Below, piece after piece: positions 2,853-26,872 of a stretch of 28,490 nucleotides of DNA. A model generated the notes under the pieces. The model searched no databases. It was not told the origin of the DNA and worked only from the letters and a program-made list of their open reading frames with translations. Origin of the DNA: a virus; the IMG/VR virus record IMGVR_UViG_3300021425_000130, positions 1-28,490 of that record. One strand, given 5' to 3'. Both the position numbers and the translations under genes were made by a program. Position 1 is the first letter of the stretch; every line of letters begins with the position of its first letter.

Positions 2853-4145
2853 TTATATTTTTTCTATTTCAATTATTTCAGCATTTTCAAATCGTGCTAG
2901 TTTAGTTGCTCTACCTTTTCTAAATATACCACCTTCCATTTCGCCACTAAATACGCCTCGAATACCAAAGACATATGAATCTTTACATATTACATTTTTA
3001 CTAACATAAGAATCTTCAATCTTTGAATCGGCAACATCAGTAGATCCAAATAAATTACTTTCTAAAATTGATGAATTAATTAATTCTGAACTAAAGATAT
3101 CACAATTTATAATATTACCTTGTATCTTGGAGTCAACAATATCAACACCATTAATTTCAAAACACTTCATTAACTCAGCATTTTTTATTTGCATTTTACC
3201 AGTATCGGCATCATAGTTAATTAAAGCCTCAGTTAATCCAGCTTTAGTCAAAAGATCAAAAAGCTTCTCTCTCATTTTAGGATAAAAGGTTTCTACAATT
3301 TGATCATAAGTTTTTAAATCTACCATTAAATGAATTTTAGGAAAGTTCTTTTTAAATGTTTGATAATCTCTATAAGATTCTATAACACTTCTATGGTTTT
3401 CTAAAATAGCATCTAATTTTTTAAGGTCTTCTTCATTATAGACTGGATCTGTTAAAGTTTCATATAGTGATAAAACAAAATGTTCAGTTAAATCCATAAT
3501 TGTGTTATACTTTTTTTCATAATCCTTACCACCTAAATATCTAAACTCTATATAATTTTTAGGTATCTTTGAAAAGTTAACACCATAATATTTTTCGGAA
3601 ACAAACAAGTAATTTTTCCAGGAGACTTTTTCTGGAGAAGGTTGAGTCATACCACTCAATGGCACAATAAATTTTATAGATTTAGCATAAACAGAATCTT
3701 TTCTATTTGGAAATGCTTCATAAACTTTATCTTCATCAAAGTTTAAAACAAATTTACCTATGTCTAAACTAGATACGTTTGTTGGTGTACCTAACTTATG
3801 CCCATCAAATGCTACATTAATATGAATAGAACATCTTTCATTTGTGCTTCCGTTTTCTCTAATCCATTTTAATGTTTTAGCAATAATTAGTTTAGCCTCT
3901 ACAAAAGGAAGTGGTCCTGTAACCATTTCAATCATGCCAGTTCCACCAGAATTATCTGGCTCTAGTTTAAAGACTTCATCGTTTGGAGTAAAATCACTAT
4001 GAGCCTTTTCTTCTATTCTAATTTGCTTATTTAAAGCTTGAGATAAACCTCTCTTTACTTCATCAAGTCCTTCATTAGCAAAGAATTCAAATTCAATACC
4101 AATCTTTGAAGCATATATAGCATTAAGTTGTTCGTTAGTGTACAT
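2853..4145 (-). CDS. Glutamine-synthetase-fold amidoligase with C-terminal beta-solenoid-like region
   Basis: Predicted to form amide bonds between a carboxylate and an amine using ATP. The 430-residue protein carries the ordered signatures of the amidoligase_2 family: G-I-E-F-E (E18, E20), L-E-P-D-N-S-G-G (D64, S66), M-I-E-M-V-T-G-P (E73, T76, P78), C-S-I-H-I-N-V (H108, N110) and N-Y-I-E-F-R (E200, R202). All the metal/ATP-type acidic residues appear intact. Residues about 205-325 are mostly helical. Residues about 335-405 turn into short polar repeats (S-K-I-Q-G-N-I-I-N-C-D-I-F, S-S-I-L-E-S-N-L-F-G) like a pentapeptide/beta-solenoid. No gamma-glutamyl cyclotransferase or glutamine amidotransferase gene, common partners of bacterial relatives, is adjacent. 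The gene sits among baseplate genes, so it is probably expressed late. A strong hairpin ends 3 nt before the ATG. Substrate unknown. Confidence 0.75.
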   Translation of the reverse strand: MYTNEQLNAIYASKIGIEFEFFANEGLDEVKRGLSQALNKQIRIEEKAHSDFTPNDEVFKLEPDNSGGTGMIEMVTGPLPFVEAKLIIAKTLKWIRENGSTNERCSIHINVAFDGHKLGTPTNVSSLDIGKFVLNFDEDKVYEAFPNRKDSVYAKSIKFIVPLSGMTQPSPEKVSWKNYLFVSEKYYGVNFSKIPKNYIEFRYLGGKDYEKKYNTIMDLTEHFVLSLYETLTDPVYNEEDLKKLDAILENHRSVIESYRDYQTFKKNFPKIHLMVDLKTYDQIVETFYPKMREKLFDLLTKAGLTEALINYDADTGKMQIKNAELMKCFEINGVDIVDSKIQGNIINCDIFSSELINSSILESNLFGSTDVADSKIEDSYVSKNVICKDSYVFGIRGVFSGEMEGGIFRKGRATKLARFENAEIIEIEKI

Positions 4146-6665: not shown

Positions 6666-8107
6666 TAGTTAAAAATATTTTCGTTAGTTATAGTTGAATT
6701 ATTTGGAGGGCCTGATGGACCGAATGCATTACCGCCACTAAACTCACTAGATGGAGTAACAGGATCAAACACTTGGTTATTGCCTGCAATAGTTTGGTTA
6801 GGTTCATCGGCAGTACCTAATGGATTATCACCAAGCCTTTGGCTAATGTTTTCATTTTGACCAAATAGTTTTAAACCATCTTCATTACCTTGAACTGCTG
6901 CACCAACTAAAGCATTACGTAAAGCCTGAGGGTTTCCTATACCACCTAAAGTAACTTGTGTCATATCAAACACATTTCCTAATTGAACTGGATTTGCAAA
7001 ACTAACAGCAGCTCTTCTGCCTAAATCCAAAGCTCCATCAATAGCTTCATTTACCTGATCTTTTGCAAACGCTTTTACTTTACCAAAAAATTGATTATCT
7101 GTTTGTACTTTACTTGCATCTAATTTATTATCATAACCAGCAAACTGAGAAACATTTTCCATTAATGCATAAGTCCATTTAATTTCAGTAGTGGTTATTT
7201 CACCACCTGAATTAGTTACACCTTCAAATACTTTTCCTGATGCCCTAGGATCCCATTCACAATCAGTAAATTTAAAACCTACTTGTGATGCGTTTTGATT
7301 TACATAAGAATCAGAAGAATTTGTAGTACTAGGGTTTGTTGCCTGTAACCAATTTCTTGTGGTTTTAAATTTTCTTATTTCTTGGACATAAACATATACA
7401 TCAAACTTCATTAAATTTTTAGGCAAAATAAATCGCTTGTACATACTATCATACACAGCCATTTTATATAAACTAAATAATGCCGTTAATTTTAAATCTA
7501 TTGCTTCTAAACATCCTATAGTAATACCTTCTTCGCCGCTACTTCCAGTATAAGGATCAATTGAAAAGTCTGTAGATTTTTGCCAAGCCTCTTGTATTCC
7601 TGCTATGGTTTGAAAATAATAAGGTCTTGTATTGTTAATTTCTTGTATGCCTTGAATAAATGCTTTTAGATATTGGGCTCGATTTACTTCACCTATAGCT
7701 TCTAAATAACCAATAGCAGATGCACCGCTTGGTGTATTTAAATCTCCGCCAGGTTTTTCTTTTGAAGTTTTATTAAATAATTGACCCGCAGCAGCTATAC
7801 CTTGATTAACAGTATTCTCAACTGTAAATTCTCCATCGTTTATACCAGACCCAGGTCCTGATGTGGCGCCATTAAATAATGGTGACGATATATCAAACAT
7901 TAAACTGAAGCCAAGATAAGTAGGATCATCTAATGAGGTTACTCCGTTAGCACCTGACCCATATGCAGATTTTGAATTATTAACAAATCTTTTAGCAAAT
8001 TCATAACTGCTCGGGAAAGATGACCCACCTAAAAGGTTTCCGTAAGGTCCAGCTAACTGAGATACTCCGTTAATTCCTGCAGGGCTAGTTAAATCTACTA
8101 AAGGCAT
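6665..8107 (-). CDS. Baseplate/tail-tube-initiator-like structural protein (gp48/gp54-like position)
   Basis: A 480-residue protein, Gly/Ser/Asn-rich at both ends. The middle (about 130-330) has a helical part (Y-L-E-A-I-G-E-V-N-R-A-Q-Y-L-K-A-F, then C-L-E-A-I-D-L-K-L-T-A-L-F-S-L-Y-K-M) and then beta strands F-D-V-Y-V-Y-V-Q-E-I-R-K-F, V-G-F-K-F-T-D-C-E-W and T-E-I-K-W-T-Y-A-L-M-E-N-V-S-Q. These look like the tail-tube barrel fold used by tube and tube-initiator proteins. It lies between the spike and hub genes and is coupled to the spike by the TAATG overlap. The family assignment is inference from fold pattern and position, not from a diagnostic motif. The last 100 residues are low-complexity and probably flexible. 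Confidence 0.6.
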   Translation of the reverse strand: MPLVDLTSPAGINGVSQLAGPYGNLLGGSSFPSSYEFAKRFVNNSKSAYGSGANGVTSLDDPTYLGFSLMFDISSPLFNGATSGPGSGINDGEFTVENTVNQGIAAAGQLFNKTSKEKPGGDLNTPSGASAIGYLEAIGEVNRAQYLKAFIQGIQEINNTRPYYFQTIAGIQEAWQKSTDFSIDPYTGSSGEEGITIGCLEAIDLKLTALFSLYKMAVYDSMYKRFILPKNLMKFDVYVYVQEIRKFKTTRNWLQATNPSTTNSSDSYVNQNASQVGFKFTDCEWDPRASGKVFEGVTNSGGEITTTEIKWTYALMENVSQFAGYDNKLDASKVQTDNQFFGKVKAFAKDQVNEAIDGALDLGRRAAVSFANPVQLGNVFDMTQVTLGGIGNPQALRNALVGAAVQGNEDGLKLFGQNENISQRLGDNPLGTADEPNQTIAGNNQVFDPVTPSSEFSGGNAFGPSGPPNNSTITNENIFN

Positions 8108-13314: not shown

Positions 13315-13698
13315 TTATGATCTTTCTTGTAATTTTAATCTTAGTTCTTTTAATGTTTTTCTTGCAACTTTTTTATCAGTATGCCAAGTAGATTTATCTT
13401 TAACCATTGTCATAGCAAACACTTCTCTTAATTGTTCAATCTCTTTATCAGTATATCCCTCTTCTTTCCACTGAGACATTTTAATAGATTCTAATTCTTC
13501 TAGTTTTGCTGATAGAGCTTTGTCTGCATTCTCTAAATTTGCAGTATGAATTTCATTTCCTTTTTCTCTGGTCTTTTTACAAACTTCAAGCCAATCTTTT
13601 AATGATAATTTGCTTTTCATTTTTAAAATTCCTTGATGTTTCATAGCCGCTCTTCTTTGGCGACGATTAGGTATTGATTGATTTACAGTCTCGCTCAT
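13315..13698 (-). CDS. Unknown basic, helical protein
   Basis: A 127-residue protein. The N-terminus is very basic (N-R-R-Q-R-R-A-A-M-K-H-Q), a possible nucleic-acid or scaffold-binding tail. The remainder is almost all charged helix with heptad-like spacing (L-E-N-A-D-K-A-L-S-A-K-L-E-E-L-E-S-I). No family recognised. It has a promoter-like AATATATAA motif 13 nt upstream and starts the four-gene run that ends at 12048. A role in tail assembly is suggested only by location. Confidence 0.55.
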   Translation of the reverse strand: MSETVNQSIPNRRQRRAAMKHQGILKMKSKLSLKDWLEVCKKTREKGNEIHTANLENADKALSAKLEELESIKMSQWKEEGYTDKEIEQLREVFAMTMVKDKSTWHTDKKVARKTLKELRLKLQERS

Positions 13699-13711
13699 AT
13701 GATTAATTTTA

Positions 13712-13721
13712 TTATATATTA
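13712..13721 (-). promoter_or_regulatory. Promoter-like motif TAATATATAA before the 127-residue gene
   Basis: Lies 13 nt before the ATG at 13698 and heads a run of four overlapping or abutting small genes. Confidence 0.45.
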
Positions 13722-13737
13722 CTAGCTATTAAGTGTG

Positions 13738-14262
13738 TTATTCTCCTTTATACTTGCTCTCAATTAATGATTGTACACTGTTATGTAAACAGTCTAAAAT
13801 TTCATCTTCAGATAATTGATCTAAAATAAATGATTGTAATACATCATTAACTTCACCTTTATCAAAAGAAGTACTCATTAATTCGTAAACGGCTTTTTGT
13901 GGAATGTTTACTGGAAATTCTAAAAGAAGTTTTACTTTATTGTTTTTCTTTTGTTTATTAAATAAAACTCTAATAGGGTTTGGTGTAGTAGATAAAGCAG
14001 TTTCAACAAGTGTAGTTTTTTCTTTCGCTGAAACATTTAGGGGATCGTTAGAAACTGGAGGTTTTATAAATTCACCTGCTATATCTTCATCTAACAGTTG
14101 GATAAATTCATCTTGCAAATCTTTTGCTAATCTACCTCCTTCATTAAAGTTTATCCACTTATCATCAGTATCTTTAATGGTTACTACGTTACCAGAATTA
14201 TCACCTTTAATCCATTGATAGTACACCTTCTCTTGTACTTTTTCAGTTTTATCTTTTTGCAT
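13738..14262 (-). CDS. Unknown acidic protein between fibre and tail genes
   Basis: A 174-residue protein. Residues 1-60 contain strands and two Trp (Y-Y-Q-W-I-K-G-D-N-S-G-N-V-V, D-D-K-W-I-N-F). A variable Thr/Pro linker follows, then a helical C-terminal half (K-V-K-L-L-L-E-F-P-V-N-I-P-Q-K-A-V-Y-E-L-M, L-S-E-D-E-I-L-D-C-L-H-N-S-V). I do not recognise it. Small proteins with a basic mid-segment and acidic helical end at this point in T4-like maps are sometimes baseplate-hub assembly factors, but that is only positional. The upstream leader includes an AT hairpin at 14276-14300 that could belong to the end of the fibre transcript or to this gene's promoter. Confidence 0.5.
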   Translation of the reverse strand: MQKDKTEKVQEKVYYQWIKGDNSGNVVTIKDTDDKWINFNEGGRLAKDLQDEFIQLLDEDIAGEFIKPPVSNDPLNVSAKEKTTLVETALSTTPNPIRVLFNKQKKNNKVKLLLEFPVNIPQKAVYELMSTSFDKGEVNDVLQSFILDQLSEDEILDCLHNSVQSLIESKYKGE

Positions 14263-14275
14263 TTGTTGTCTATTT

Positions 14276-14300
14276 ATTATTATACTTTAAATATAATAAT
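14276..14300 (-). other. AT-only 9-bp inverted repeat between fibre and 174-residue genes
   Basis: ATTATTATA/TATAATAAT with a 7-nt loop in a 52-base gap. It could be part of a promoter for the fibre-proximal gene order or a weak stem-loop. AT-only repeats arise easily by chance in this composition. Confidence 0.25.
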
Positions 14301-19952: not shown

Positions 19953-21275
19953 TTAACAATCCCTTCCGTTAGCATAAATATGTTTTACTACAGGGAATCT
20001 TAGAGAGTAACCTCCAGTTTGATTTTTACTTTCTTCAAAATATTGGATAGTTACTGTTTTACCTATAATCTCCTGTGGAAATTCATAATAATGTTCTCTT
20101 TGTTCTTTAGAGAAACCTGATCCTACACTAACTTTACAACCTTTATGTTCAATTATAATACTACTTAAACATTCTCTTTCTACTTGTTTACCGTTTTCTG
20201 TCCATCGGATATTTCCATTGATTGCATCTAGGACAGTATATTCTGCATCATGGAATTTTTTAACCTTTAAAAGATTATGGCTTCTTTTACCTTCATAGCC
20301 TACATTCTTTCTAACCATGATTCCTTCAAATCCTGCTTCTTCAGCATCCTTTGCCATTTCAGTAAATTGGCCATCATTTGAAATTTGTTCTTGTTTAAGA
20401 AATTCTAACATATCAGAATTAATATCTTCTGGTAATAAATCATAACCATTACGAAGTCTTTCAGTAAGTGGTGTAGTTCCAACCTTATTGTCAAATTCAT
20501 CTAATGTTAAATAATCAAATATAAAGAATTTAGGATTTTTAATTTGGTGATCCTTCTTTCGGATCTGTTTCATAATTCCTTGGAAGTCTTCATTACCATT
20601 TTCATCTACTAAACAAATTTCTCCATCTAATATAAAGTCTCCACCTATCTTAGAAATTTCATTTTCCAAATTACCTAGAGTTAAAAATTCTTTACCACTT
20701 CTTGAAAAGAATGTTACTGTATTCATTTCCTTTCGGCAAATACAACGTACTCCATCTAGTTTTCTTGATCCAAACCAATCTTCATTTTCAAAATCTGTTC
20801 TTTTAGGATTATAAGGATTAGCTAAAGCAACCTTAAATGTAGGAATTAAATCTGGGTGTACTGCTTTATTAATTGATGTAGTATTAGCACCCATTTTAAG
20901 GTCTCTATCAATCATATTCCAAATGATATCTTCCCATTGTTTGTTTTCTAAAACAAATCGGTTTACATTTGCAATTGCAGTATGTCCTGTACAAACTCGG
21001 TTTTTCAAATCATCCAATAAAGTAAATATACTTCCATAAGTATTTGGATGTCCTACTAAATCTGAATTCTTTTTACAGTTCTTAGAAGTAACATTATATT
21101 TCCAGTATGGATTGTAAGTATATTCAAAAATCTTTTGTAGAAATTCTCTATCTTCATTCTCTTCTGAATTATCAGCATACTTTTTAATAGTTGCAATCTT
21201 ATGATTCCCTGAAGATGAATCTCTCATCTCATTTAAGAATGATTGTAAATAGTTGAGGTTTGTGTAATATGTCAT
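19953..21275 (-). CDS. ATP-dependent DNA ligase, T4 gp30-like
   Basis: Seals nicks in duplex DNA via a lysyl-AMP intermediate. The 440-residue protein has motif I R-K-L-D-G-V-R (catalytic K172), motif III F-I-L-D-G-E-I (D217, E219), motif IV F-E-G-I-M-V-R-K (E317) and motif V L-L-K-V-K-K (335-340), followed by an OB-fold C-terminus (about 345-440). The N-terminal helical domain contains D-L-K-M-G-A-N-T-T-S-I-N-K-A-V-H-P, the counterpart of the T4 gp30 stretch before its adenylation domain, so I call DNA rather than RNA ligase. It follows the tRNA pair and the duplicated element. A possible stem-loop (19920-19947) lies just after its stop. T4 gp30 is about 490 residues, so this is somewhat shorter. 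Confidence 0.9.
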   Translation of the reverse strand: MTYYTNLNYLQSFLNEMRDSSSGNHKIATIKKYADNSEENEDREFLQKIFEYTYNPYWKYNVTSKNCKKNSDLVGHPNTYGSIFTLLDDLKNRVCTGHTAIANVNRFVLENKQWEDIIWNMIDRDLKMGANTTSINKAVHPDLIPTFKVALANPYNPKRTDFENEDWFGSRKLDGVRCICRKEMNTVTFFSRSGKEFLTLGNLENEISKIGGDFILDGEICLVDENGNEDFQGIMKQIRKKDHQIKNPKFFIFDYLTLDEFDNKVGTTPLTERLRNGYDLLPEDINSDMLEFLKQEQISNDGQFTEMAKDAEEAGFEGIMVRKNVGYEGKRSHNLLKVKKFHDAEYTVLDAINGNIRWTENGKQVERECLSSIIIEHKGCKVSVGSGFSKEQREHYYEFPQEIIGKTVTIQYFEESKNQTGGYSLRFPVVKHIYANGRDC

Positions 21276-21746: not shown

Positions 21747-22328
21747 TTAATATTCAGTGTTAAAGAAAAATGTTTGAAATAATCTACCATCATACTTGTC
21801 TTTTCCAAAGTACTCCATAGATTTATGAAACATATCACCTCTATACAAAACTAACCTATTATAAATATTTCCAACCATTGCAGTCATTTCCCATGCATCT
21901 GCATTATATGCATCAGAATTAATTTTATCAATTCTCTCCCGGTCATAAGATCCGTCTTCTTTTCTTGGGGCAAATTCTAACCCAGTTGGTTTATGTCTAT
22001 ATAATGCAGTACCTCCATTAGCTGGAGCATTAGGTGTTAAGTAACAAACACCAGCCCATGTTGTTGAATTATCAGCATGAATCCAACTAACATCTTTTTC
22101 TGTTGTATATTGCCAAGCTGTAGTATAAGCATCTTCAAAATAAGTAATGTTTCCACCTGCATGTTGGACTATACCTTGTATGACATCTTGTAAACCCCAA
22201 GTGTGGCATGGGGCAGTTCTTTGACCAGGATAATTACCTCTTACATCAAATTCTTGCTGTAAAACCCATTCTCTTGTTTCTTCTGGATTATTGTAAAAAT
22301 TATCGGTAATAATTAAATTTGTTTGCAT
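21747..22328 (-). CDS. 2-oxoglutarate/Fe(II)-dependent oxygenase-like protein
   Basis: A 193-residue protein with the double-stranded beta-helix iron site: H-A-D (H84, D86) in S-W-I-H-A-D-N, the distal histidine H168 in G-D-M-F-H-K-S, and R182 in G-R-L-F-Q-T-F-F-F for the 2-oxoglutarate carboxylate. The strand W-A-G-V-C-Y-L-T-P-N-A-P-A-N-G-G-T (91-107) is typical of the prolyl-hydroxylase-like/DUF6445 group. Such enzymes hydroxylate proteins, nucleobases or small molecules; the substrate is unknown. 2OG oxygenases are frequent in marine T4-like phages. It is followed by a small membrane protein and the tRNAs. All metal residues are present, so it is likely active. Confidence 0.78.
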   Translation of the reverse strand: MQTNLIITDNFYNNPEETREWVLQQEFDVRGNYPGQRTAPCHTWGLQDVIQGIVQHAGGNITYFEDAYTTAWQYTTEKDVSWIHADNSTTWAGVCYLTPNAPANGGTALYRHKPTGLEFAPRKEDGSYDRERIDKINSDAYNADAWEMTAMVGNIYNRLVLYRGDMFHKSMEYFGKDKYDGRLFQTFFFNTEY

Positions 22329-22349
22329 ATTGAAATATTTTATTATTTA

Positions 22350-22658
22350 TTAGTTAATTTCAGGTGGCTCTTCTTCATCATTCCATGGGCCATCTAAAAA
22401 TAACATCGTTTTTAGTTTTTGTAAATTTGTACATCGTTCATATTGTTCTTCATGTTCAAAATACTTAATAAGACCGTCTATACTTTCTATTTTATTTTCA
22501 ATAGAATCTTTTCTTTTTAAAACTGCACTAGGGCTTTGCATTAAAACATGATATGATAAATCCATAAATCTATCAAAGTCAGTATGTTCTAATGTTAGCA
22601 ATAAATTTTTTAAAAATTCATCGCTAAAACCTTTTCCTTTTTTAGGATCCTTTGCCAT
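22350..22658 (-). CDS. Small protein with UVR-like helical hairpin
   Basis: A 102-residue protein. Residues about 55-88 (I-E-N-K-I-E-S-I-D-G-L-I-K-Y-F-E-H-E-E-Q-Y, then C-T-N-L-Q-K-L-K-T-M-L) resemble the UVR motif, a helical hairpin for protein contacts in UvrB/UvrC and McsA. The N-terminus is basic and the last 15 residues acidic. Its start lies 17 bases inside the DnaJ gene, and the shared DNA carries the AAATAAACACA leader, so the two proteins are likely made together. A role as a DnaJ partner or adaptor is conceivable, but only from position. Confidence 0.55.
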   Translation of the reverse strand: MAKDPKKGKGFSDEFLKNLLLTLEHTDFDRFMDLSYHVLMQSPSAVLKRKDSIENKIESIDGLIKYFEHEEQYERCTNLQKLKTMLFLDGPWNDEEEPPEIN

Positions 22659-23469
22659 TGTGTTTATTTTTTATTTTTGTTATTAACATTTTATCTTCAT
22701 CATCTAAATCTGTAGGTATATCTACAATTATGCTTATAAGTAAATCACTATACTTACCTTCTTGCTTATAAATAGGAAACCCTTTTCCTTTTACTCTAAG
22801 GACCTTTCCGTTTGGAGTACCTGGTGGAATTGTGAAAGAAATAATTTTATCAAAACAATCAATACTTTCCTTTCCACCTAACAGTGCATCATAAAGACTT
22901 ATATTTTTTATTGTATGCAATCCCTGATTGTCTAAAAAGAAGTCTCTATCATTTATTACTTCAATAGTCATTATTAAATCACCGTTAAGTTCTTCAGTCT
23001 GGCCACGTTGGCCTAATCCTTTTAATCTTAATTTCTGGCCATTTTTAATTCCAGCTGGAATATCAACTTTTATTGTTTTCATTCCAATTCCAACATCTCT
23101 ACTTGTACCATAATAAGCATCAGCTAAAGATATTCTCAAAATCCCAGTAGTGTTTCTACCTTTAGAATTAAATCCATATCTTTGATTAAAAGCTCCGGCA
23201 AAGTTTTGATTTCTTAATAAGTCTTCAAACATACTTCCTGTAAAATCATGACCAAAATCAGCAAAAGGATTATTGGCTCTTTGATCATACTGAGCTTTCT
23301 TCTGAGGATTACTTAAAGTTTCATATGCATCAGCGATTTCTTTAAATTTATCTTCATTACCAGAACCTTTATCAGGATGATATTGCTTAGCTAATTTTCT
23401 ATAAGCTTTTTTAATTTCATTGTCAGATGAATCTTTATCTACTCCTAATATGTTATACGGATCTTTCAT
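22642..23469 (-). CDS. DnaJ/CbpA-type Hsp40 co-chaperone without zinc finger
   Basis: A co-chaperone that would stimulate host DnaK. Residues 1-65 are a J domain (P-Y-N-I-L-G-V, A-Y-R-K-L-A-K-Q-Y-H-P-D-K, with the required H-P-D; A-Y-E-T-L-S-N-P-Q-K-K-A-Q-Y-D). A short Gly/Phe linker (F-A-D-F-G-H-D-F) follows. Residues about 110-270 are the two C-terminal peptide-binding beta domains (V-D-I-P-A-G-I-K-N-G-Q-K-L-R-L-K-G-L-G). The CxxCxGxG zinc repeats of DnaJ itself are absent, so it is a CbpA/type II form. I start it at ATG 23469, which overlaps the previous stop as TAATG; an ATG three codons earlier (23478) is possible. It probably assists folding of large virion proteins. Confidence 0.9.
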   Translation of the reverse strand: MKDPYNILGVDKDSSDNEIKKAYRKLAKQYHPDKGSGNEDKFKEIADAYETLSNPQKKAQYDQRANNPFADFGHDFTGSMFEDLLRNQNFAGAFNQRYGFNSKGRNTTGILRISLADAYYGTSRDVGIGMKTIKVDIPAGIKNGQKLRLKGLGQRGQTEELNGDLIMTIEVINDRDFFLDNQGLHTIKNISLYDALLGGKESIDCFDKIISFTIPPGTPNGKVLRVKGKGFPIYKQEGKYSDLLISIIVDIPTDLDDEDKMLITKIKNKHNGKGS

Positions 23470-23813
23470 TATTTCCAAAAAAGCTGTATACCTATTAGGC
23501 TACATGCAAGTGCTAATGATACTATTGTTTTAAGTGTTATACCTTCTCCTAAAAAATACCAAGTCAAAAATGTGAATGAAATTATACCTGATCCAAAACC
23601 AATAAATCTACCTGGCCATAAAAGACCATCATAATATTCTACAATAAACTTTGTACCATAAATTAATATGTAACTAATTGCAGTACCGAAAACAATTGAT
23701 ACAGTAAGAGGATTCTTTTTAAACCAGGGCCATACAAATTGACCGTTAGTTTGAATCCAAATTGCAGTTTGTCCAGTAAAGAATAATAAAAATGCTAAAA
23801 GTAACTTATTCAT
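23469..23813 (-). CDS. Small four-span membrane protein, SMR/DMT-like size
   Basis: A 114-residue, very hydrophobic protein with about four membrane spans (roughly 3-20, 36-57, 67-88, 92-112). The last segment, G-I-T-L-K-T-I-V-S-L-A-L-A-C-S-L-I-G-I-Q-L-F, resembles the C-terminal helix of small drug/metabolite transporter-like proteins, but the conserved Glu of SMR transporters in helix 1 is not seen, so a transport role is doubtful. It overlaps the 88-residue gene by 8 bases and the DnaJ start by one base. A holin-like role is another possibility, though four spans is more than most holins. Confidence 0.5.
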   Translation of the reverse strand: MNKLLLAFLLFFTGQTAIWIQTNGQFVWPWFKKNPLTVSIVFGTAISYILIYGTKFIVEYYDGLLWPGRFIGFGSGIISFTFLTWYFLGEGITLKTIVSLALACSLIGIQLFWK

Positions 23814-24305: not shown

Positions 24306-24329
24306 TTTGTTTACAAATATATAAACAAA
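24306..24329. promoter_or_regulatory. Perfect 8-bp dyad in the divergent promoter region
   Basis: TTTGTTTA and TAAACAAA flank an 8-nt centre in the only divergent intergenic region of the window. It overlaps the plus-strand promoter motif, so a bound regulator would control the cassette at 24342-25840 and perhaps the minus-strand DnaJ operon. Confidence 0.5.
24315..24324 (+). promoter_or_regulatory. Promoter-like motif AAATATATAA before the plus-strand cassette
   Basis: Lies 17 nt before the ATG at 24342, the same core and spacing as on the minus strand, which shows that the motif follows gene direction. Confidence 0.5.
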
Positions 24330-24341
24330 TAAAACTTAACA

Positions 24342-24788
24342 ATGAGCAAGATACCAAAGTTTGAAAAATTTAATGAGGCTATCGTAGCTGCAGGCTTCGG
24401 TCCTAGTTATATGCAACCATACTCTATTGCTACAGGTATACCTAATACGGGATATAGTATGCAGCCTGTAGTTGGGCACGTAAATAATGTTGCAACAGGA
24501 ATGGCTGAGCAGGCAAATATGTATGAAACTAATGATAATGAAGATCATACTGCTGAAGCATATTTAAAAGAAGCTAAAAAGTATTTAAATGAAGCAATAG
24601 ATAAGGCATATGAATCACATTGTAATGAAGCAATGGTTCAGGTAGCTGGAAAGGATAAGCCATCTGGGGCTAAAGTATTAGCAATGGTTATCGTAGATCA
24701 TTTAATTGATAAGAAAATTGTTACAAGAGCATACAAGAAAAAACTTGAATCTGAAATTCAAGACATAATTATAAATTCAACATTTTAA
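24342..24788 (+). CDS. Putative packaged/internal protein 1 of the plus-strand cassette
   Basis: A 148-residue protein, first of four plus-strand genes. The N-terminus K-F-E-K-F-N-E-A (6-13) has the F-x-x-F-N-E motif shared by the cassette; it resembles the short capsid-targeting sequence of T4 internal proteins, cut by the prohead protease after Glu. Residues 15-60 are Gly/Pro/Tyr/Met-rich and probably unstructured; residues 70-148 are helical and charged (A-Y-L-K-E-A-K-K-Y-L-N-E-A-I, A-Y-K-K-K-L-E-S-E-I-Q-D-I-I). A promoter-like AAATATATAA lies 17 nt upstream, inside an 8-bp dyad. The next gene begins one base after its stop. Packaging inside the capsid is inferred only from the motif. Confidence 0.55.
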   Translation: MSKIPKFEKFNEAIVAAGFGPSYMQPYSIATGIPNTGYSMQPVVGHVNNVATGMAEQANMYETNDNEDHTAEAYLKEAKKYLNEAIDKAYESHCNEAMVQVAGKDKPSGAKVLAMVIVDHLIDKKIVTRAYKKKLESEIQDIIINSTF

Positions 24789-24789
24789 A

Positions 24790-25041
24790 ATGAGCATTAG
24801 TAACTTTAAAGATTTTGATTTAAATGAAGCTGATAAGCATGAATTTAATCCAAATGAAACGGCAGAAAGATTAAAGAGAAGAGAGCAACAAAACATTGAC
24901 AGGTTTAGAGCTGCTCAAGACAGAGAAGACCCTTTTGCTATAGAGTATTATCAATTAAGAATTTCTATAGACAAGCTTGATATTAAAAAATTACAATATC
25001 AAACTAAGATTCATCAACTTAAGCAAAAATATAAAAAGTAA
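24790..25041 (+). CDS. Putative packaged/internal protein 2 of the plus-strand cassette
   Basis: An 83-residue, strongly charged protein. The N-terminus N-F-K-D-F-D-L-N-E-A (5-14) contains the cassette motif with L-N-E, the best match to a (L/I)-x-E prohead-protease site. After it comes a helical, basic-rich body (A-E-R-L-K-R-R-E-Q-Q, then I-D-K-L-D-I-K-K-L-Q-Y-Q-T-K-I-H-Q-L-K) likely to form a coiled coil or bind DNA. If cut after E13, the mature part is 70 residues. It starts one base after gene 1 and its stop overlaps the start of gene 3 (TAATG). No family recognised. Confidence 0.55.
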   Translation: MSISNFKDFDLNEADKHEFNPNETAERLKRREQQNIDRFRAAQDREDPFAIEYYQLRISIDKLDIKKLQYQTKIHQLKQKYKK

Positions 25042-25361
25042 TGATAGGTAAATTTGAAGAATTCTTAAATGAAAAAAACTTTATGGTTGCAACGGCTGAT
25101 ACTGCTGTTAAGTATAGGATATCTCATATGCCATTATCAGGTTATATTGTAGCAATGCCATCAAGCAGTAAAGAATTAGATAAAGAAATAGAATCAGGAT
25201 TTTCTAAAACTGCAATTGCTAAAGACATAGAAGATATGTTAAATGACCAATTAAAAAAATACAGACAGTTTATTAGAGTAAAGGTTGATCATGGCTATAA
25301 AGGCGCAGGTTACGCATTTACATTTGATATGGATGAATTACTAAAAACATTAAACAAATAA
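25041..25361 (+). CDS. Putative packaged/internal protein 3 of the plus-strand cassette
   Basis: A 106-residue protein. K-F-E-E-F-L-N-E-K at 4-12 is the clearest form of the cassette motif, close to T4 internal-protein targeting sequences of the type M-K-T-Y-Q-E-F-I-x-E. The rest mixes strands and helices (Y-R-I-S-H-M-P-L-S-G-Y-I-V-A-M-P, then R-Q-F-I-R-V-K-V-D-H-G-Y, then Y-A-F-T-F-D-M-D-E-L-L), so it may be a small folded domain after cleavage. It is coupled by TAATG overlaps to both neighbours. Function unknown; an injected protein acting early in infection is one inference. Confidence 0.55.
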   Translation: MIGKFEEFLNEKNFMVATADTAVKYRISHMPLSGYIVAMPSSSKELDKEIESGFSKTAIAKDIEDMLNDQLKKYRQFIRVKVDHGYKGAGYAFTFDMDELLKTLNK

Positions 25362-25840
25362 TGGATAAGCAAGAAACACAAGACGAAAATTCAATCAGAC
25401 ATTACAAAGGTACTGTTAAACAATTCAAACAAATGTTTGACGACTTAGCGGATGGTAAAGATACTAATGCATATGATAGCCCAGTAAGACAAGGGTATGA
25501 TGTTCATCCTACAAGAGATGAGAATAATAAAAGCCCACACTGGGATGAAGAGTATGAAGATGAGTTAACTCAAAATGAAAATCATATCCCTACCTTTGAA
25601 TCATTTTTAAATGAAGGAAAAACTACTGACGGTTTAGGAAAGGATGCTATGGAGATATACCGAGACTTAGATTTACAGATAGGTCTTGATGATCCTAAGT
25701 ACACTATTCGTAGTTACAAGGATATTGAACCTGCTATGAAAGATCATAAGCTATTTAAAAAGTTAACACCTAGAGAAAAAAGAATCCTAGATAGAGCACT
25801 AGGTAACTTAATGAGAATAGCAATTAGGATGGAAAGATAA
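25361..25840 (+). CDS. Putative packaged/internal protein 4, motif internal
   Basis: A 159-residue protein, last of the cassette. Here the motif (T-F-E-S-F-L-N-E-G, 78-86) is in the middle, after an acidic, low-complexity N-terminal half (D-E-N-N-K-S-P-H-W-D-E-E-Y-E-D-E-L). If cleaved after E85, a 74-residue helical C-terminal domain (A-M-E-I-Y-R-D-L-D-L, then L-T-P-R-E-K-R-I-L-D-R-A-L-G-N-L-M) would be released. No in-frame Met just before the motif allows a later start. The stop lies three bases from the convergent stop of the minus-strand gene at 25844, with no obvious terminator hairpin between. No family recognised. Confidence 0.5.
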   Translation: MDKQETQDENSIRHYKGTVKQFKQMFDDLADGKDTNAYDSPVRQGYDVHPTRDENNKSPHWDEEYEDELTQNENHIPTFESFLNEGKTTDGLGKDAMEIYRDLDLQIGLDDPKYTIRSYKDIEPAMKDHKLFKKLTPREKRILDRALGNLMRIAIRMER

Positions 25841-26365: not shown

Positions 26366-26872
26366 TTATAAATTTATTTTTGCATAATTTTGTACCTTCT
26401 TCCAATAGTGAGAAGTTGCAGGTTTTTTAAATCCTTTAGGACCGCCATTCCAATTCCTAGCCATCTTTTCAAATGAACTATCAAGATGGTATGCATCTGC
26501 CCAAATGTTAAACATTTCAATTGACTTATCACCATCCTTTCTATCACTATTTTTAAATCTTTTATCCAGGCCTCGTTTTCGTAGTATGCGATTTACTTCT
26601 CTAACCATGATCGGTCTAATTTGTAAAAGACCTACTGATGGTGAACCTAAATTAAGATCTCCAATTATTGCAGGATTGCCACCACTTTCAACAAACGCCA
26701 TAGCCTCTATTAATTCTTCTCGGTTATCTATCTTTCCGTTTATAAGGTTAACTTCTTCCTCTATAATTTCAATTATAAGATTATCTTTAACTTCTATAAC
26801 CTCATGTTGCATACTTGTAGAACCTGTCATTGTAAGCAAGAACGTTGATATTAGTAAAACATTTTTCATCAT
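26366..26872 (-). CDS. Exported lytic transglycosylase (SLT-like), probable lysis enzyme
   Basis: Cuts peptidoglycan glycan strands. The 168-residue protein starts with a signal peptide (N-V-L-L-I-S-T-F-L-L-T-M-T-G, residues 4-17). The SLT motifs follow: I-E-A-M-A-F-V-E-S-G-G-N-P with catalytic E62, S-V-G-L-L-Q-I (79-85) and M-A-R-N-W-N-G-G-P (137-145). Catalytic residues are intact. Residues 25-45 form an acidic spacer. Because of the signal peptide it could reach the periplasm without a holin, as SAR/exported endolysins do. Two adjacent ATGs (26872, 26869) overlap the previous gene's TGA; I use the first. The spike has no lysozyme domain, so this is the only wall-cutting enzyme seen in the window. 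Confidence 0.82.
   Translation of the reverse strand: MMKNVLLISTFLLTMTGSTSMQHEVIEVKDNLIIEIIEEEVNLINGKIDNREELIEAMAFVESGGNPAIIGDLNLGSPSVGLLQIRPIMVREVNRILRKRGLDKRFKNSDRKDGDKSIEMFNIWADAYHLDSSFEKMARNWNGGPKGFKKPATSHYWKKVQNYAKINL

Follow-up and report, generated by a model that had tools for sequence, protein, structure and literature searches.

The window, the whole stretch of DNA analysed here, comprises 28,490 bases from a single IMG/VR virus record. The DNA derives from a huge T4-like myovirus, of which it covers only a part; its baseplate protein shares 48% identity with that of the 462-kb uncultured phage LR756500 and about 31% with those of the Prevotella Lak phages. The plus strand carries a cassette of four genes (24342-25840, Table 1), in which a 1-base gap separates the stop of gene 1 from the start of gene 2 and the two following junctions are 1-base overlaps. 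Since the remaining plus-strand ORFs of at least 60 aa overlap larger minus-strand genes, these four are the only convincing plus-strand genes of the window. A preliminary description, made from the sequence, had presented the genes as coupled, as alone on their strand and as sharing a short motif, and it was correct on all three counts: the motif begins at residues 7, 6 and 5 in genes 1, 2 and 3, close to the N-terminus, and at residue 79 of gene 4, in mid-protein (in context, KFEKFNEA, NFKDFDLNEA, KFEEFLNEK and TFESFLNEG). We refer to it as the tag and to the remainder of the protein as the body.

Table 1. The four tagged genes and associated sequence features (positions in the window).
Feature	Position	Strand	Description
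Inverted repeat	24306-24329		TTTGTTTA / TAAACAAA; 8-base arms, in the divergent intergenic region upstream of gene 1
Gene 1	24342-24788	+	148 aa, tagged putative cargo protein
Gene 1 tag	24360-24377	+	FEKFNE, aa 7-12; predicted targeting and cleavage site before AIVAAGFG
Gene 2	24790-25041	+	83 aa; tag and a single module (KHEFNPNETAERL...)
Gene 2 tag	24805-24828	+	FKDFDLNE, aa 6-13; predicted cut before ADKHEF
Gene 3	25041-25361	+	106 aa, tagged, body diverging fast
Gene 3 tag	25053-25073	+	FEEFLNE, aa 5-11
Gene 4	25361-25840	+	159 aa; constant N-domain, site, exchangeable C-domain
Gene 4 internal site	25595-25615	+	FESFLNE, aa 79-85

A comparison with PHROGs found no homology of the four proteins to T4 internal proteins and matched them, weakly, to unnamed families only (best E 0.019). 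In the phage collection, gene 3 had no meaningful match and gene 4 had none (best E 2). IMG/VR contains 14 loci related to gene 1, and in the relatives G001, G002 and G004 the neighbouring genes are the same. At the corresponding place in LR756500, beside the DnaJ gene and on the opposite strand, lie two genes with different bodies, of which one is tagged clearly and the other weakly. A DnaJ-like gene lies near the cassette at 22642-23478, and the tagged genes of LR756500 likewise have one nearby. The gene adjoining the cassette at 26366-26872 may encode a secreted lytic transglycosylase (weak PHROGs match, E 0.013). The inverted repeat upstream of gene 1 has both arms intact in seven of the nine sequences shown, as judged by eye, and is a candidate regulatory site in a divergent promoter region.

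When relatives of the four genes are aligned, the motif is conserved and the bodies are exchanged. The gene 1 alignment includes nine of 15 sequences, with L012 excluded for an internal stop, and F7, F10, N11 and E12 are invariant in all nine. (The L012 relative, at 7498-8028, is broken by a stop codon or frameshift, possibly an assembly error.) F5, F8, L9, N10 and E11 of gene 3 are invariant in its six sequences; the window protein has 35-39% identity to four of the five other members and 98% to the fifth. In gene 2, the glutamate (P1) ahead of the last module is invariant in nine of nine sequences, with differing sequence leading up to it: FKDFDLNE, FESFNE, DGNDGVTE or FSESVNE. Gene 4 (nine sequences) has a constant N-domain of about 75 residues that ends in F-x-x-F, and F79 and F82 are invariant throughout. 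Its mid-protein motif turns out to be the join to an exchangeable C-domain, a detail beyond what was first described: four of the nine proteins, including that of the window, share one C-domain, three carry an unrelated one and two terminate at the site, without the glutamate.

The capsid-targeting sequence (CTS) of the T4 internal protein IPIII is described as its first 10 residues, of which, according to mutagenesis, residues 4 and 7 are used for targeting and residues 8 and 10 for processing, and the T4 protease gp21 as cleaving after L/I-x-E (PMC9026906). In the T4 record, both IPII and IPIII begin with MKTYQEFIAE, that is, with Y4, F7, I8 and E10. The F-x-x-F-(x)-(L)-N-E tag matches this sequence by position, as two aromatics followed by (L/I)-x-E. 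The aromatic-x-x-aromatic pair that corresponds to the CTS targeting positions is N-terminal in genes 1-3 and internal in gene 4. Relative to T4, gene 2 has an extra residue before L-N-E, and the spacing in gene 1 is shorter. The likeness to T4-style targeting and (L/I)-x-E cleavage that was first noted stands for the residue match and for genes 2, 3 and 4, which have LNE right after the aromatics, and is less exact at the processing site of gene 1, where the residue before N-E is F, neither L nor I (its relatives have FNE, VNE, TNE or INE). A similar sequence, F59-G-S-F-L-T-E65, is found at the end of the propeptide of the T4 capsid protein gp23, which is given as 65 residues long (PMC9026906). 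The match to the T4 CTS, taken with the gp21-type protease in relatives that include a head region, the sites in the protease-scaffold ORFs of G001 and G029 and the module joins at the site, all described below, strongly supports reading the tag as a putative capsid-targeting sequence and protease site.

In the window, the pattern F..F.{0,2}NE occurs within the first 25 residues of four of the 38 genes, against 0.1 expected from the remainder of the proteins, and the gene 4 site is its only match outside that range. Three of the four are cassette genes. The fourth, 2853-4145 (FEFFANE), was dropped from the set, as its motif is kept in relatives at residue 19, away from the N-terminal end. A position-specific score of at least 10 gives three matches against 0.1 expected, namely gene 3, gene 2 and a DNA ligase (19953-21275, LQSFLNEM); gene 1 falls below this score. 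The ligase was also dropped, as its PHROGs match spans residues 12-433 and LQSFLNEM is probably part of the ligase fold.

Many more tagged genes are found in related genomes. About 20 genes of the 181-kb relative G001 open in the style of the tag when judged by eye, and four reach a score of 10 (0.6 expected). LR756500 has 22 matches at a score of at least 12, against 0.6 expected, a census that is partly circular, as 20 of the 24 tags used to train the score come from that phage. On the 166-kb contig G029, 27 of the 198 genes start with [FY]xxF[LIV]xE (0.6 expected). The 57 proteins selected by their tag from three phages have the consensus MKxIKxYxxFxNE and almost nothing aligned beyond it, with a mean column identity of 7%. 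Many genes thus carry the motif, yet they have it at the N-terminus and in numbers well beyond those expected by chance, and it therefore marks a set and is not, as would have counted against it, equally common in unrelated genes. The word cassette covers too little of this, since the tag is used throughout the genome and a larger finding, that of probable cargo polyproteins, comes from the relatives.

The spelling of the tag varies between phages. Neither crAss001 nor phiKZ has a match at a score of at least 12, and phiKZ has one at 10 or more (0.4 expected). PTm1, which has a gp21-type protease, has none at 10 or more and three at 9 or more (0.4 expected), with no clear tag set. The score misses T4 IPI, and PAU, PTm1 and T4 show no enrichment of the strict pattern F..F[LIV].E. 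None of G001, G025, T4, PAU, PTm1 and MA9V-1 is matched by a relaxed DNA pattern of the MK style. The capsid protein of the cultured Chryseobacterium phage MA9V-1, for whose virion only a gel is reported (PMC10537231), has RWSEFINEA close to its start. The lineage of the window spells the tag divergently and is counted as a member on the strength of the T4 positions and the module evidence. The cultured Sphingomonas phage PAU (L074-L084) has an N-terminal tag of its own, MK[TS][LI]xxLYE, behind which [AS][KR]LNE is often found; about a dozen genes carry it, and three of these lie between the protease and capsid genes of the phage.

The more specific pattern MK[HY]IKx[FY]xxF[LI]xE matches at least 120 stretches in IMG/VR, and its backward version matches none. 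The 80 loci among the matches listed contain 101 tag ORFs, 98 of them of at least 60 aa. Position 8, which the pattern leaves free, is E in 98 of the 101, and the 98 tagged bodies of these listed loci fall into 59 families. All 16 contigs of at least 140 kb among the 80 listed loci were searched for the gp21-type protease (PF03420), and 15 have it, against four of the 10 contigs of at least 140 kb among 80 loci gathered with a thymidylate-synthase pattern as a base-rate control. The resulting Fisher p of 0.005 is only indicative, as some of the 16 contigs look like near duplicates and are not independent cases (G012, G014 and G019 have the same tags and are apparently near-identical, and G008 resembles LR756500). 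Relaxed tags number 95 in the 16 contigs and none in the 10 controls, and their backward version has no match in the 16. The protease is also present in G001 and LR756500 and was not found in four shorter relatives; the window, a 28-kb fragment, has no gene for it. The contigs behind the gene 2 module relatives have it in two of 12 cases, and the other 10 probably lack the head region, since a capsid gene is confined to the same two.

In 14 of the 15 tagged contigs with a protease (G006-G021), the protease ORF is 606-747 aa long; in all four control contigs that have one (G034, G037, G039 and G042), it stands alone at 199-259 aa. The protease ORF of G001 probably also holds the scaffold, judged by its length and by the annotation of PTm1. 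It contains nine aromatic-xx-aromatic-[LIVM]-x-E sites, several of them at a 14-residue period, and other G001 proteins have at most two. The corresponding ORF has five sites in G029 and three in LR756500, with two in the next protein of each genome. In T4, PAU, PTm1 and MA9V-1, the protease or scaffold protein is not outstanding in this respect.

A short motif in AT-rich genomes could arise by chance, or descend from an ancestral N-terminal helix that has no targeting function. Isolated false positives do occur, such as the ligase and 2853-4145, and a frame-blind DNA pattern for FxxFx[..]NE is not enriched in six records (11 matches against nine for the backward control). Such an origin is nevertheless extremely improbable, as the bodies are unrelated, the enrichment sits at the N-terminus and at module joins, and the backward pattern is absent both from IMG/VR and from the 16 contigs.

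The window gene 2 is the shortest form of its family; relatives have up to three extra modules between the tag and the final module. The L011 version is a protein of 299 aa, made from a tag and four modules of 66-73 residues, with VxE at each join followed by A or G. A search with this protein led to module-sharing ORFs of 741-1247 aa (L146, L148, L150 and L151, of which the L150 chain runs beyond the end of its locus), and the G025 contig has two further chains, of 1008 and 746 aa. A recognisable tag opens L150, L151 and the 1008-aa G025 chain; L146 and L148, two of the longest, have no clear tag at their start. Linkers of the form S[AVIL][VIL]?xE exceed the mean of shuffled sequences in L148 (13 vs 1.2), L150 (13 vs 1.1), L146 (8 vs 0.9), L151 (6 vs 0.8), L011 (3 vs 0.2) and L139 (1 vs 0.2).

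The joins were examined with 60 modules (41 families) from eight ORFs, searched against the 6402 ORFs of the gathered loci. Because the modules had been cut by the site pattern, the subject side alone is a test. The 225 contexts, self matches included, were reduced to 115 by removing self matches and hits of at least 99.5% identity and collapsing duplicates. [LIVFM]-x-E stands directly ahead of the module start in 95 of these 115 distinct non-self contexts, against 2.9% of random positions in the same proteins, and within two residues of it in 108, against 13.8%; these contexts are related by descent, so that binomial values are not probabilities, and some, such as YYDVTE before VERG, fall within a longer stretch of shared sequence and cannot be counted as independent. 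The exact fit is found in 36 of 44 N-terminal and 59 of 71 internal contexts. Contexts were obtained for 26 module families; an exact site occurs at least once in 23 of these families, and in 20 it accounts for most of the contexts. Eleven modules are found both near an N-terminus, after the glutamate, and within a chain. The module AKNTIxLAF, for example, follows SYNEFLNE in a stand-alone tagged protein of G029, ESVVTE in L148 and L149, and NGVVTE in L150.

At the DNA level, the linkers of L148 (418-3906) and L150 (2701-6240) are largely one 18-mer, repeated exactly or nearly so, and could be a substrate for module shuffling. This repetition is what would be seen if the N-terminal motif and the linkers were recombination seams, short DNA repeats that serve the swapping of bodies, and the protein motif a by-product. 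We consider that explanation quite improbable, as the pattern persists across contigs with varied residues and lengths (FNE, LNE, VTE, VNE, VIE, INE), the conserved residues are those that T4 genetics links to function, and sites of this kind also occur in the protease-scaffold ORFs of G001 and G029. The joins may nonetheless be recombination seams as well as cleavage sites, as both roles are possible.

With cleavage at the joins, the chains would be cargo polyproteins cut by the prohead protease, with up to about a dozen small proteins per precursor. We lean slightly towards this interpretation; our confidence in it is lowered by the absence of a clear N-terminal tag from L146 and L148. The L150 polyprotein has no match in the phage collection. 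Five of the eight chains scanned with Pfam have no family above the cut-off, in a search that domains absent from Pfam would escape, and the five of the eight compared with PHROGs gave one clear match, of a G025 chain to the unnamed phrog_1987.

Pfam, PHROGs and PADLOC provide few names for the 57 tagged proteins, and the PADLOC matches are weak (best E 0.00035). AlphaFold modelling gave low confidence both for gene 1 (pLDDT 52.6) and for the four-module form of gene 2 (pLDDT 47.7). The bodies that can be recognised are leucine-rich repeats (LRRs; six of the 57 members), an ATP-grasp protein, a SnoaL/CaMKII-association-like protein and a metallopeptidase-VWA pair. LRR-like tagged proteins of LR756500, an odd cargo for a head, are encoded at 13446-14282, 180972-181730, 198758-199531 and 331856-332545; those at 180972 and 331856 matched Pfam LRR. 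Another tagged protein of this phage (200318-201793) combines a DUF2201 metallopeptidase domain with a VWA-like domain. The T4 internal proteins are reported to be defence proteins of diverse kinds in which the CTS alone is conserved (PMC3012670), and by analogy our guess is that the cargo has an early role in counter-defence or host take-over.

The tagged proteins could instead be sent by their tags to the prohead core as scaffold or core helpers that, like T4 gp67 and gp68, are digested or expelled during maturation and not injected. The T4 core proteins are described as likewise cut (PMC9026906), and tagged genes do lie beside the capsid gene, one in G001 (22041-23111) and two in G029 (54955-56098). 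Many others are far from the head genes, and the bodies, in 59 families among the matches listed, are very diverse for such a role and include the LRR, ATP-grasp, SnoaL-like and metallopeptidase/VWA families. We therefore regard it as unlikely that the set consists of helpers of this kind.

The reading that we favour, with a probability of about 0.82 judged from sequence comparison, is that a huge T4-like phage carries the four proteins as cargo of its head and that the tag, F-x-x-F-(x)-(L/V/I)-N-E, is a capsid-targeting sequence combined with a gp21-type cleavage site. The two aromatics of the tag would let the precursor dock in the prohead core. Cleavage after the glutamate by the gp21-type protease would follow and leave the mature body in the head, from where it would probably be delivered with the DNA. 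Bodies are swapped behind a constant tag. In the relatives with several bodies in series, an equivalent site at each join would allow the prohead protease to release several small proteins.

T4 IPI-IPIII and Alt are the closest parallel: in both cases bodies of diverse kinds follow a short, conserved tag at the N-terminus, which has aromatics in CTS positions 4 and 7, a hydrophobic residue at 8 and Glu at 10, and the phage group has a protease of the gp21 family. T4 has only a few such genes, whereas the phages described here have up to dozens per genome; their protease is usually part of an ORF of 600-750 aa, probably with the scaffold, and they have multi-module cargo ORFs and bodies without a named PHROGs match. 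The giant phages phiKZ and SPN3US also cut many head proteins after a short motif that ends in Glu, and their ejection proteins are described as processed by gp175 and gp245, respectively (PMC10052503, PMC5694885). SPN3US differs in having, as reported there, 14 sites in nine substrates, propeptides mostly of 111-254 residues and a diverged protease, in contrast to the short tags and PF03420-type protease of the present group. In phiKZ, we found no PF03420 match and no tag set.

The polyvalent proteins of Iyer et al. (2017) similarly combine many domains in one polypeptide and are predicted there to enter the host with the DNA. Their authors likened them to the polyproteins of RNA viruses and described release by embedded peptidase domains (PMC5512222), whereas the cutter here would be a separate prohead protease acting at repeated LxE-type joins. 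In phage P1, an N-terminal signal directs the anti-restriction protein DarB into the head, which resembles the present tag by description; what sets DarB apart is that its N-terminus may require proper tertiary structure, as its authors suggest (PMC9024508). In the open-access literature, we found no description of a tag set of this size or of capsid-targeted phage cargo polyproteins. T4-type targeting is already known; the scale of the tag set, the PAU-specific tag, the long protease ORF and the polyproteins seem to be new.

If the favoured reading is true, the tag reveals at the level of sequence which proteins a huge phage loads into its head, and the candidate injected arsenals of uncultured phages, up to dozens of proteins per genome, could be listed from the genomes alone. 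Such cargo would be fast-changing, as expected of counter-defence proteins. The cargo polyproteins, if true, would add to the ways in which virion cargo is produced and would give dsDNA phages an equivalent of the polyproteins of RNA viruses, by which a mixed set of injected effectors is loaded. The stages in between can be followed in the family of gene 2, from the single module of the window protein to the four modules of its longest relative.
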